64,000 bases of DNA, from positions 1 through 64,000 of the forward strand of contig CAJXLJ010000009.1 of assembly GCA_913055785.1 (NCBI GenBank). The letters run 5' to 3'. This DNA comes from an uncultured Parvularculaceae bacterium (GTDB lineage: Bacteria > Pseudomonadota > Alphaproteobacteria > Caulobacterales > Parvularculaceae). Shown piece by piece: positions 36,332 through 62,212 of this stretch (positions are counted from its first letter, which is position 1; every line of letters starts with the position of its first letter). The translations under genes and the position numbers were made by a program. The notes below the pieces were generated by a model, which did no database searches, was not told the origin of the DNA, and was given only the letters and a program-made list of their open reading frames with translations.

Positions 36332-36883
36332 TTATGCGCCGTCGGTAATGGTTTCGAGCGTCAGTGAGTCGTTCGTGTAAACGCAGACCGACGCGGCGAT
36401 CGCCATGGCTTTTCTGACGATCTCCTCAGCGTCGAGCGTGGTTTCCTCAAGCAGCGCGCGCGCCGCCGACCGCGCGTAATCGCCGCCCGAGCCGATGCCG
36501 GTAACGCCGAATTGCGGCTCAAGCACGTCCCCCGCTCCCGACAGCGTGAGCGTGACGGATTTGTCGGCGACGATCATCATCGCCTCGAGACGGCGCAGAT
36601 AGCGGTCGGTGCGCCAGTCCTTGGCGAGTTCGACGCAGGCGCGGGTGAGCTGGTCCGGATATTGTTCGAGCTTGGCTTCAAGCCGTTCGAGCAGGGTGAA
36701 GGCGTCAGCGGTCGCGCCGGCGAAGCCGGCGATGACCTTGCCGGCGCCGAGCCGGCGCACTTTGCGCGCATCGCCCTTGACCACGGTTTGGCCGAGGCTC
36801 ACCTGCCCGTCGCCGCCGACGCAGACGGTTCCATTGCGGCGCACCGCGAGAATCGTCGTGCCGTGCATGTCGTTCGCACTCAT
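36332..36883 (-). CDS. hslV: ATP-dependent protease peptidase subunit HslV
   Basis: Proteasome-like peptidase. From ATG 36883 the 183-aa precursor has a seven-residue propeptide (MSANDMHG); processing after G exposes Thr1 in [10 protein letters not shown]. From Thr1, Asp17 (GGDGQ) and Lys33 (ARKVRRL) fall in the canonical places, and IGSGG is present. A longer upstream frame would add an unlikely N-terminus. It is divergent from hisB across 114 bp. Confidence 0.96.
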
Positions 36884-36997
36884 CTTCCGCTCCGTTTCCG
36901 CGCTCGCCCTGAATGGACGAGCACGTGAATTTTCAATATGTATCAACGTATTCGGCGTTCCATAGCGGAACCGGCCCGAACTTGAAAGGAGCCCGCC

Positions 36998-57138: not shown

Positions 57139-58152
57139 TTAATTCATCTGACACTCGCCGAGCGTGAGGATCTGCGCAATCAGATCGGGATCGTCGGGGA
57201 GGATGCCCGCGGCGGGCAGGCGCGGGATCAGCTCGCGCCATAACGGCCAGGCCTCGAACGCTTCCTTGAAGAGCGGCAGCGATGCGCCGACCTCGCCGAC
57301 CGAGGCCAGGGTGACGGCGCGCCAGAAAACCATTTCATGGTTGCCGGGCGCCATTTCCGCCGCGGCGGCGTAGGCCTTGTTGGCGCCTTCCATGTCGCCC
57401 GCGGTGACCAGTTCGTCGCCCTTGTTCATGAGATTGTAGGCGCGGTTTAAAACGATCAGCCGCCGCAATTCGGCGAGCGGCGTTTCGTGATCCTCGACGC
57501 GCAAATCGATGACGCGGCCTTCCCACGGATTGGCGTGACGCGTCCCGTCGACGACGGTCATCGCCGCCGACTGCTTGCCGCGAATGTCGCCGCCGACGCT
57601 TTGCGCGCCTTCGAGCGCCGCCATCAGCCGTTCGGCGAGATCGCCTTCGGCGGCTTCAAACGCCGCGGCCATCGCCGCGCAGACGGTTTCTTTTTCCATC
57701 AGGTTCGCCTGCACCGAATAGCCCTCGCCCTGGCTGTCGCAGGCGTGGACGATGGCGTTCTCGCCGGTATGGGCGGCGACGCGGCCTTGCGCGTCCACAT
57801 ACGCGACCTGACGCACATTCCGGTTTTCGTCCTTATCGATCAGTTTCGCGAGCGTCTTCGCCGGGTCTTTTCCCTTGCGCATCGCCTCAAGGCCGCGCGG
57901 CCCGTATGCAGGTTCGACGAAGGACTGCGTTGCGGCCGCGCCGACGCCGGCTTCCGCCCAGGAAACGATCGATCCGACCGAGAACCAGTGCGACTGCACC
58001 GCGACGCCGATCTCGCCGGTTTCCGCATCGCGGGCGACGATCGAATAGGTCGAGACGGGGCGCTTCGGGTCCGCCGCGCCGAAATCGTCTTCGGCGTGAA
58101 CGGGCGCGCAAATAAATGCGCTGATCAGCACGGCGGCGGTCAAACGGTTCAT
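57139..58152 (-). CDS. DUF1028 family exported protein (Ntn-hydrolase-like)
   Basis: About 337 aa with a signal peptide (MNRLTAAVLISAFICAPVHA). The DUF1028 core (VSTYSIVARDAETGEIGVAVQSHWFSVGS in parts; GAAATQSF; ANLMEKETV) spans about 33-230. A helical, TPR-like C-terminal extension (LMNKGDELVTAGDMEGAN) follows. DUF1028 is placed in the Ntn-hydrolase superfamily; its substrate is unknown. The ATG at 58152 has GGAGG 10 nt upstream; the ATG at 58161 lies directly on it and is less likely. Confidence 0.85.
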   Translation of the reverse strand: MNRLTAAVLISAFICAPVHAEDDFGAADPKRPVSTYSIVARDAETGEIGVAVQSHWFSVGSIVSWAEAGVGAAATQSFVEPAYGPRGLEAMRKGKDPAKTLAKLIDKDENRNVRQVAYVDAQGRVAAHTGENAIVHACDSQGEGYSVQANLMEKETVCAAMAAAFEAAEGDLAERLMAALEGAQSVGGDIRGKQSAAMTVVDGTRHANPWEGRVIDLRVEDHETPLAELRRLIVLNRAYNLMNKGDELVTAGDMEGANKAYAAAAEMAPGNHEMVFWRAVTLASVGEVGASLPLFKEAFEAWPLWRELIPRLPAAGILPDDPDLIAQILTLGECQMN

Positions 58153-58250
58153 CGATGTCATCCTCCGGTTTTTGCCGATCCTATCGCGGCGGCGGCGCAA
58201 TCGAAACCGCCGCTTGCGCCGCGCTTCTCGAAGCCGCACCTTGTATTGCG

Positions 58251-60928: not shown

Positions 60929-62212
60929 ATGACATCTGAAGTCGTGTTGATGAACCGTCAGGCGGTGGCGATGGCGGCGGACAGCGCCGTCACCATTTCC
61001 GGCGACCGCTATCTCAAAACCTATCAGTCAGTGGACAAGCTGTTCCCGCTGGTCGACGGCCAGCCGGTCGCGGTGATGATCTATAACAACGCCGAGATCA
61101 TGTCGACGCCGTGGGAGACGGTGATATCCCTTTATCGCGAACAGGCGCGGGGCCGTGCGCTCGAAACCGTCGCCGCCTACGCCGACGACTTCATGGAGTT
61201 CCTTTCCGGCAACCCTGACCTCTTTCCGCCCGAACATCAGGATACGGAATTCTTCAAGGTCGTCGCCGTGGTTTTTACGGTGATCGCCGAGGAATTCGAT
61301 CATCAGGTCCAGCAGTATCAGGGGCGCCATGGCGCGCGCGTCAAGGATCACATCTCCTCGATGTTCGAATATGTGGTCGGCCAGCTGCATGCGGACTACC
61401 AGCGCTATCCCGACGATTCGCCGCGCGCGGATCTGCCGTGTTTCCCGAAAGGCATGGACGAGCAGGTCCGGCGCCGGTATGGCGGCGAGATCGATCAGCT
61501 GATCGAAAGCCTGCTCGCGTCGCTGAAACAGGAATTTCCGGGGCTGACGGTGTCTGAAACGACGCGCGGACGGCTTCGCGAGATCGCCGTGTTCGCCTGC
61601 GTCAAGGACGCGTTTTTCGAGCATTATACCGGCGTCGTCTTCGCCGGCTTCGGCGCCCGCGAGAAATTCCCGTCAATGCGCTCCTACCTTTCCTCAAGCG
61701 TCATTCTTGGCATCTTGAAGCGCAAGCGCGACCGCGAGGCGGACATTCATTCAGATTCAGGGCCGGTCTTCCAGCCCTTCGCGCAGGACCGCATGATCCG
61801 GACGTTCCTTACCGGCATGGACCAGTATCTCAGGATGTTCGTCTTCAGCGAAACCCTGAAGCTTTCGAAGGGGCTCGTCACCGACATTGTCGCGCGCACG
61901 CCCAATCTCACCGACGCGCAGCGCAACGCGATCTACGCTGACTACAGCCAGAACAATCTCGGCCACGCCCTGCATGAATTTTTCCGCTCGGTCGATAATT
62001 ATCAGTATACGGTCCATACGCGGCCGATCCTGAGGGCGATCAATTCGCTGCCGAAGAAAGAGCTGGGCGAGACCGCGGCGTCGCTGATCAAGCTCAACTC
62101 CTTCCAGCAGAAGGTCATGCACTCGGTTGAGACGGTCGGCGGGCCGATCGACGTTGCGGTGATCACCCGCAACGGCGGGCTTGAATGGAAGCGCGAGAAG
62201 CCGGAGCTTTAG
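60929..62212 (+). CDS. Uncharacterised protein with a proteasome/HslV-like N-terminus
   Basis: A 427-aa protein starting MTSEVVLMNRQ; removal of Met would expose Thr1. Counting from that Thr, the segment AVAMAADSAVT puts Asp at 17 (as in HslV and 20S beta), and VDKLFPL supplies a Lys at 36 (canonical 33, three residues inserted). VMIYNNAEI sits where beta subunits have the Gly-rich strand after the Lys. The remainder (about 80-427) is a long helical extension that I do not recognise. No signal peptide. Ribosome site AGGGG. Followed 12 nt later by a 142-aa gene. The proteasome-like reading is mine by alignment; the family identity is unknown. Confidence 0.8.
   Translation: MTSEVVLMNRQAVAMAADSAVTISGDRYLKTYQSVDKLFPLVDGQPVAVMIYNNAEIMSTPWETVISLYREQARGRALETVAAYADDFMEFLSGNPDLFPPEHQDTEFFKVVAVVFTVIAEEFDHQVQQYQGRHGARVKDHISSMFEYVVGQLHADYQRYPDDSPRADLPCFPKGMDEQVRRRYGGEIDQLIESLLASLKQEFPGLTVSETTRGRLREIAVFACVKDAFFEHYTGVVFAGFGAREKFPSMRSYLSSSVILGILKRKRDREADIHSDSGPVFQPFAQDRMIRTFLTGMDQYLRMFVFSETLKLSKGLVTDIVARTPNLTDAQRNAIYADYSQNNLGHALHEFFRSVDNYQYTVHTRPILRAINSLPKKELGETAASLIKLNSFQQKVMHSVETVGGPIDVAVITRNGGLEWKREKPEL

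Follow-up and report, generated by a model that had tools for sequence, protein, structure and literature searches.

A gene with threonine next to the start and invariant candidate catalytic residues

The window, a 64,000-nucleotide stretch of the genome of an uncultured Parvularculaceae bacterium, carries a gene for a 427-residue protein with a predicted proteasome-like fold, closely followed by a gene for a smaller partner protein (Table 1). A sequence-only reading of this DNA had drawn attention to the threonine that follows Met1, to an aspartate at position 17 counted from that threonine and to a lysine at position 36 in a VDKLFP context, and these positions are confirmed on the open reading frame. 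In protein numbering the three residues are Thr2, Asp18 and Lys37, and they are invariant, together with Asn9, Ser19, Thr22 and others, in an alignment of 17 sequences. This set comprises the window protein and 16 relatives from a whole-protein search (24-51% identity to the window protein), picked for diversity, with fragments and close copies omitted.

Table 1. Positions in the window of the genes, residues and predicted elements discussed in the text
Feature	Position	Strand	Basis or remark
Proteasome-like Ntn-hydrolase gene, consistent with PMI-4 type, 427 aa	60929..62212	+	ATG start; ORF call, relatives, predicted fold
Predicted nucleophile Thr codon (residue 2; Thr1 once Met is removed)	60932..60934	+	Invariant, 96/96
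Asp18 codon GAC (Asp17 in Thr1 numbering)	60980..60982	+	Invariant, 17/17 and 96/96
Lys37 codon AAG (36 in Thr1 numbering), VDKLFP context	61037..61039	+	Invariant, 96/96
First predicted helical insertion (residues 101-225), following the initial pair of helices	61229..61603	+	Model, element order
Second predicted helical insertion (residues 299-373), between putative H3 and H4	61823..62047	+	Model, element order
Conserved C-terminal segment, residues 404-413, GGPIDVAVIT	62138..62167	+	Alignment; core strand 407-413
Partner gene, 142 aa	62225..62653	+	12 nt 3' of the enzyme gene; homologues, conserved position
hslV	36332..36946	-	Only PF00227 match in the genome
DUF1028 protein gene	57139..58239	-	PF06267, E 2.4e-69

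The same three residues are invariant in a larger, non-redundant alignment, which consists of the window protein and 95 of 156 loci after a cut at 80% identity. The 156 loci, from which the partial locus L070 was left out, were gathered via short sequence patterns, one of which contains the aspartate, so the conservation of Asp18 in this set is biased; the threonine and the lysine lie outside the patterns. Judged from these alignments, the Thr-Asp-Lys arrangement is far beyond chance. A start codon stands immediately 5' of the threonine in every one of the 156 loci (ATG in 141, TTG in 9, GTG in 6), and many of them have an in-frame stop just a few codons further 5', which leaves those loci no alternative start. 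L022, which belongs to the first set, carries ATT before the threonine in place of these start codons, shortly after an in-frame stop. The gene begins immediately ahead of the threonine, with no propeptide.

The distance from the threonine to the lysine varies with the length of the intervening loop, which accounts for a lysine at 36 rather than 33 in the window protein: of the 156 loci, 111 have it at 36, 22 at 33 and 23 at some other position in the range 34-40. The position read as the oxyanion Gly47, assigned by Thr1 numbering, holds Gly in 84 of the 96 aligned sequences and Ala in 12, the window protein having Ala as do 11 other members. For the window gene, searches for promoters and terminators scored no higher than they did on shuffled sequences.

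A predicted 20S beta-subunit fold with two helical insertions

Given the non-redundant alignment, AlphaFold2 models the 427-residue protein with a pLDDT of 92.8 and a pTM of 0.89. Re-alignment of Foldseek's own matches pairs the model with 186 of the 202 residues of the 20S beta subunit of Archaeoglobus (Z 17.7, rmsd 3.7), and this alignment runs from model residue 2, paired with beta residue 1, to model residue 427, paired with beta residue 195. The prediction, made with high confidence, is of an entire 20S beta-subunit fold into which two helical segments are inserted. Structure prediction and Foldseek comparison thus return the beta sandwich of the proteasome-type N-terminal-threonine fold that had been proposed from residue spacing, with Thr2 at the place of the beta-subunit Thr1. 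The proposal also included a large helical extension; the helical addition is indeed large, but the model places it in two internal insertions and not at a terminus.

The first insertion, of ~125 residues, consists of helices 101-158, 176-202 and 210-225, and the second, of ~75 residues, of helices 299-323 and 329-373; both were located by the order of secondary-structure elements and not by superposition. The best Foldseek hit, at E 9.8e-5, is a mammalian 20S subunit, and Anbu is listed at 3e-3. Superposed over their full length, the Foldseek matches fit poorly (TM 0.28 by query and rmsd 18.9 in the best row), in our opinion because of the helical insertions. A search of BFVD with the model gave no match at E 0.001 or better; the first row is a protein named proteasome beta subunit (E 0.005), and rows 2-4 are uncharacterised phage proteins. 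HslV is absent among the best 50 matches listed in the structural re-alignment, an absence that excludes nothing.

Sequence routes to this fold are faint. Searches of the 427-residue protein gave only two chance-level rows in Pfam (E 0.14 and 0.22, under the cut-offs), nothing in NCBIfam and, with phmmer against the PDB, no match at E 10. A family profile compared with the Thermoplasma acidophilum 20S beta sequence gives E 0.005 over window residues 402-419. Cullin matches of the same profile, which rank ahead of 20S beta at E 0.0035 and fall in a helical insertion, are taken as chance. In a phage library the protein matches phrog_5990 (E 2.8e-74), annotated as function unknown.

Assignment to the PMI-4 family

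Fuchs, Alva and Lupas (2021; PMC8665760, a paper cited by PMC13022661) named 22 proteasome-like families, giving them predicted folds without functions. The suggestion that the window protein might found a new family is thus overtaken by that publication. Two of the families, PMI-3 and PMI-4 (the latter standing for Proteasome homolog with Multiple Insertions 4), combine a long insertion behind H1/H2 with a second one that separates H3 from H4 (PMC8665760). By element order, the window model has the same beta fold with helical segments at 101-225, after H1/H2, and at 299-373, between H3 and H4. PMI-4 comprises 501 sequences at 90% identity and is listed in Proteobacteria, Firmicutes, Bacteroidetes, Actinobacteria, Euryarchaeota and phages (Table 1 of PMC8665760). 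Relatives of the window protein occur in Bacteria, Euryarchaeota and phages, the archaeal records including metagenome bins in which misbinning is possible. PMI-3 shares both insertions, but its published spread is narrow: the same table gives it 28 sequences and lists none from phages, Firmicutes, Bacteroidetes or Actinobacteria. Since insertion architecture and taxonomic spread both match, the window protein fits PMI-4, the comparison being one of architecture and distribution and not of sequences.

The better-known relatives differ more clearly. The window enzyme shares with the 20S beta subunit the fold and a threonine at the equivalent place, but it is twice as long, carries two helical insertions and has no propeptide, and neither an alpha subunit nor an ATPase is found among its five tested neighbours. 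Like HslV it has a threonine after the start and Asp17. The PF00227 search of the genome, by contrast, matches only the hslV gene of the same window; PF00227 is not listed for the window enzyme at E 10, hhalign of the family profile against the window's HslV found nothing, and no HslU lies among the tested neighbours, so identity with HslV was rejected. Connectase, a specific ligase rather than a protease, likewise has a proteasome-like fold and no propeptide, but it is described as lacking H1/H2 and as carrying a two-helix insertion between S3 and S4 (PMC8665760). The window model has H1/H2 (helices 62-73 and 81-93), and the gaps between its strands there are just 4 residues (21-24 to 29-32) and 5 residues (29-32 to 38-40), and connectase was set aside. 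Anbu was rejected as well, for its long C-terminal H5 helix is absent and the model terminates in strands 407-413 and 417-422.

Among open-licence papers, the literature search found no functional study of PMI-4. The kind of protein has been known since 2021, and its gene context looks to be unreported: the authors of PMC8665760 state that for these families they saw neither a genomic context that hints at function nor an AAA+ partner, whereas a small 3' partner and, in some relatives, ubiquitin-like cassettes are found here.

Distribution of the enzyme

In the window's family the gene is present in all 35 other sampled genomes, in one of which (G018) it is split into pieces on two contigs. 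Other families of the order have it in 3 of 24 genomes, and the overall count is 39 of 60 with the window's own genome and both groups taken together. The wider class sample is patchy (14 of 289, own genome included). At least 448 relatives were confirmed in genome records, many of which are metagenome bins, and 77 loci were kept; the record names among the matches listed include archaea (ANME-1, Thermococcaceae), Nitrospirae, Planctomycetota, Bacteroidetes, Streptomyces and others, and the best-matching named genomes among them are Parvularculaceae such as Marinicaulis. On viral contigs 170 stretches were confirmed and 80 kept. Of 50,697 phage records 13 carry a relative, and these include Streptococcus satellite phages and a Providencia phage; so do 10 of 72,556 plasmid records, one being an Enterococcus faecium plasmid. 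In the window's family the enzyme-partner pair is nearly universal and housekeeping-like; outside that family, prophages, satellite phages and plasmids carry it as well.

Some plasmid copies of the enzyme are shortened or interrupted, with 357 aa to the first stop in L203 (Rhizobium leguminosarum), 251 aa in L204 (Hyphomicrobiales UR115) and 122 aa in L205 (Rhizobium WYJ-E13).

A small gene directly downstream

The coupling to a 142-residue protein that had been noticed in the window alone proves to be real and conserved. Of 60 genomes of the family, own genome included, 56 encode a homologue of this partner, and it lies directly 3' of the enzyme in 29 of 32 alphaproteobacterial loci checked. 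The remaining three (L065-L067) belong to a more distant clade, with 50-54% enzyme identity, and have other ORFs in that place. The partner has no family match in Pfam or in NCBIfam. A second alphaproteobacterial clade, Rhizomicrobium-like (L071-L087 without L082 and L085), has its own 3' proteins of ~120-195 aa, which differ by eye from those of the window clade.

Beyond this clade, a small ORF is usual at the same place. Under a strict rule (30-80 aa, a Shine-Dalgarno-like stretch and a start at -45 to +30 nt), such an ORF stands directly 3' of the enzyme in 55 of 71 loci, a non-redundant and mostly non-alphaproteobacterial set, versus 34 of 326 control genes (Fisher test, 2e-29). In alphaproteobacterial loci a longer 3' ORF is found in 15 of 20 cases versus 13 of 114 controls (Fisher test, 1e-8). 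Controls were genes of 250-600 aa in the same loci, whatever their operon position, and 4 of the 95 loci had too little downstream sequence. Among the other 16 of the 71 loci, one has a longer ORF and 15 have neither kind under the strict rule, as is also the case for 5 of the 20 alphaproteobacterial loci. With a permissive rule, 159 of 164 loci have a small ORF, a figure obtained without a control and not counted as proof.

The partner ORF often overlaps the enzyme's stop codon, and the two frames overlap or nearly touch. Over 15 related partner pairs, which include near-duplicates (L140/L152 with L142/L154; L182/L183), the changes at codon positions 1, 2 and 3 number 207, 188 and 369 (369 of 764 at the third). 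This pattern is as expected for real, constrained genes, although the near-duplicates make the p-value of the test smaller than it should be. Deposited records also annotate partners of 58 aa in Providencia phage PSTRCR_117lys, 55 aa in a Porphyromonas phage and 56 aa in an E. faecium plasmid; the record of a Stenotrophomonas phage annotates none at that place. Compared with the window, the partner is 60% identical in G020, 40% in G033 and 35% in G028, versus 88%, 71% and 67% for the enzyme, and by these sequence identities the partner is evolving faster than the enzyme within the same genomes.

By eye, many partners from cellular genomes have an aromatic-aromatic-Pro motif and a C-terminal helix-like stretch, and phage partners differ widely from one another. 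Partners of different clades have no visible homology, with no sequence common to all, and a single shared role for them is therefore an assumption. In the window the enzyme and its partner share one reading frame, and a read-through fusion was modelled with the stop read as Gly and a 5-residue linker, giving a chain of 574 aa (alignment of 64 rows, 13 of them fused and 15 with the partner alone). The secondary structure of the enzyme in this model is essentially as in the model of the enzyme alone. Blocks of fusion residues 531-560, the partner's last third, have pLDDT values of 81, 89 and 93, versus 76-79 for its middle helix and 46-60 for its first part. Read from these pLDDT blocks alone, the pattern would fit a partner whose last third docks as a short segment.

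Neighbouring genes and the phage setting

The absence of an adjacent ATPase, claimed from the window's letters, fits the five neighbours tested, which are DUF1028, SelO, SIMPL, YbjQ and cytochrome c genes; this neighbourhood is conserved in the window's family. The DUF1028 gene lies ~3 kb upstream of the enzyme gene. DUF1028 is presumably itself of Ntn-like fold, and two Ntn-type proteins may thus stand close together in the window.

Among 48 non-redundant viral loci (from L115-L194), 11 have a repressor-like helix-turn-helix gene as the first or second gene upstream, transcribed in the same direction, as counted by sequence clustering and by eye without a control count. The position is like that in a lysogenic operon or prophage immunity region. 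Other phage copies are found next to genes for holin and lysozyme, or where the prophage ends. The arrangement fits cargo expressed in the lysogen, with a defence role possible. PADLOC has no model matching the enzyme-partner pair. A scan of neighbours within four genes at 27 genome loci (126 of 134 listed, at least 85 aa) found scattered restriction-modification, E1 and helicase genes, and among the best 25 families listed per library none matched more than 3 proteins.

Ubiquitin-like cassettes near some relatives

At nine loci, five of them on rhizobial plasmids, an enzyme relative and a cassette of multi-ubiquitin/E2, ThiF E1 and DUF6527 genes are no more than ~5 kb apart. The cassette corresponds to operon type 6e, polyubiquitin-like, of Iyer et al. 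2006 (PMC1779556), whose multi-ubiquitin, E2-like, E1 and metal-binding proteins here adjoin the enzyme relative. Two gene orders are found. In type A the cassette is divergent, with two unknown genes between it and the enzyme (Mesorhizobium plasmid L037, Rhodocyclaceae L095, Muproteobacteria L106, Bradyrhizobium L107 and Novosphingobium L112); because one enzyme clade is common to all of them by eye, these loci are not five independent events. In type B, on Rhizobium plasmids L200, L201, L203 and L207, the cassette lies on the far side, followed by a gene annotated as a Clp protease subunit, which in L200 is a ClpP-like serine protease by Pfam.

A 205-aa protein with no assigned role is encoded near the enzyme in one type A locus (L107:11750-12337) and in the type B loci (L200:7429-8043), at 44% identity, and its L200 copy has no Pfam family.

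The cassette is present on five of the 10 plasmids with the enzyme, and a multi-ubiquitin relative on 98 of 72,556 plasmid records; the hypergeometric value for their co-occurrence, 1e-12, ignores shared ancestry and the weight of Rhizobiales. The other five enzyme plasmids (Ruegeria, Pantoea, E. faecium, UR115 and WYJ-E13) have no cassette near the gene, and those of UR115 and WYJ-E13 hold short or interrupted enzyme copies. In contrast to the type 6e operons, the five tested neighbours in the window include no multi-ubiquitin, E2 or E1 genes, and the genome itself yields nothing for multi-ubiquitin at E 1 and, for E1, just a weak and partial hit (E 1.8e-4). As the window's genome does without it, the cassette is unneeded for the enzyme's basic role. 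Ubiquitin-like modifiers together with the proteasome appear in the literature listings for archaea, and no open-licence paper was found that links a proteasome homologue of bacteria to a ubiquitin cassette.

Proposed mechanism and its alternatives

Methionine aminopeptidase takes off the initiator methionine of proteins that begin in this way, exposing the threonine, and Thr1 of 20S beta subunits attacks amide bonds. The window protein is probably a proteasome-like Ntn hydrolase of PMI-4 type that works along these lines outside a ring and together with a dedicated regulatory partner. Removal of the methionine would expose Thr1, which would attack amide bonds as in 20S beta subunits, and the enzyme may be a peptidase. 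The two helical insertions, ~125 and ~75 residues long, make a double ring of the HslV kind unlikely; they may instead form a lid or docking platform, in which case the enzyme would be a monomer or small oligomer acting on few substrates. The small protein would be a dedicated regulator, whether inhibitor, activator or adaptor, that docks on the enzyme through short segments.

The small protein could also be the cognate substrate, cut or ligated in the manner of connectase into a processed peptide or conjugate. We hold this to be rather unlikely, with some points in its favour: the partner is small and dedicated, has long poorly ordered stretches in the fusion fold and is encoded in a frame that overlaps or nearly touches that of the enzyme, and the related connectase is described as a specific ligase, not a protease (PMC8665760). 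Against it, no sequence common to all partners is seen, and connectase itself, which lacks H1/H2 and has its insertion elsewhere, is unlike the window model. Carriage by prophages, satellite phages and plasmids, the fast divergence of the partners, the restriction-modification genes that adjoin some loci and the helix-turn-helix gene upstream in 11 of 48 viral loci, counted without a control, would suit a toxin-antitoxin or phage-exclusion pair in which the enzyme harms the cell or the phage and the small protein restrains it. The near-universal presence and conserved neighbourhood in the window's family, together with the lack of a PADLOC match, speak against such a pair, and we judge it improbable.

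A general, ATP-independent protease for unfolded proteins, whose partner just aids folding or assembly, would agree with the lack of an AAA+ gene among the five tested neighbours, and the describers raise such a role as possible for some families (PMC8665760). Large helical insertions and a dedicated partner suggest selectivity instead, and this role seems to us unlikely. Least plausible by far is a catalytically dead structural or binding protein. In its favour, these proteins have no known activity and the window protein has Ala at the position read as the oxyanion Gly, but Thr, Asp and Lys are invariant in the aligned archaeal, bacterial and viral members and the start codon is tied to the threonine. 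The preferred reading stays that of a probably non-ring hydrolase with exposed Thr1 and a dedicated regulator.

A broader idea takes in the cassette loci. The family might be a two-component machine, made of the enzyme and a dedicated, quickly evolving small partner and found across bacteria, archaea and phages, that has been joined more than once, in plasmids and islands of Pseudomonadota, to a multi-ubiquitin/E2/E1 cassette, as a minimal pathway of tag and proteasome-like enzyme evolved apart from that of eukaryotes. We regard this as a tentative possibility, on balance doubtful.

Implications

The small gene that usually lies 3' of the enzyme gives each lineage a binding candidate, and with it a first handle on function. 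The cassette loci allow a direct test of whether bacteria couple a ubiquitin-like tag to a proteasome-like enzyme. The window's own pair occurs in nearly all genomes of its family and is an obvious one to express first.
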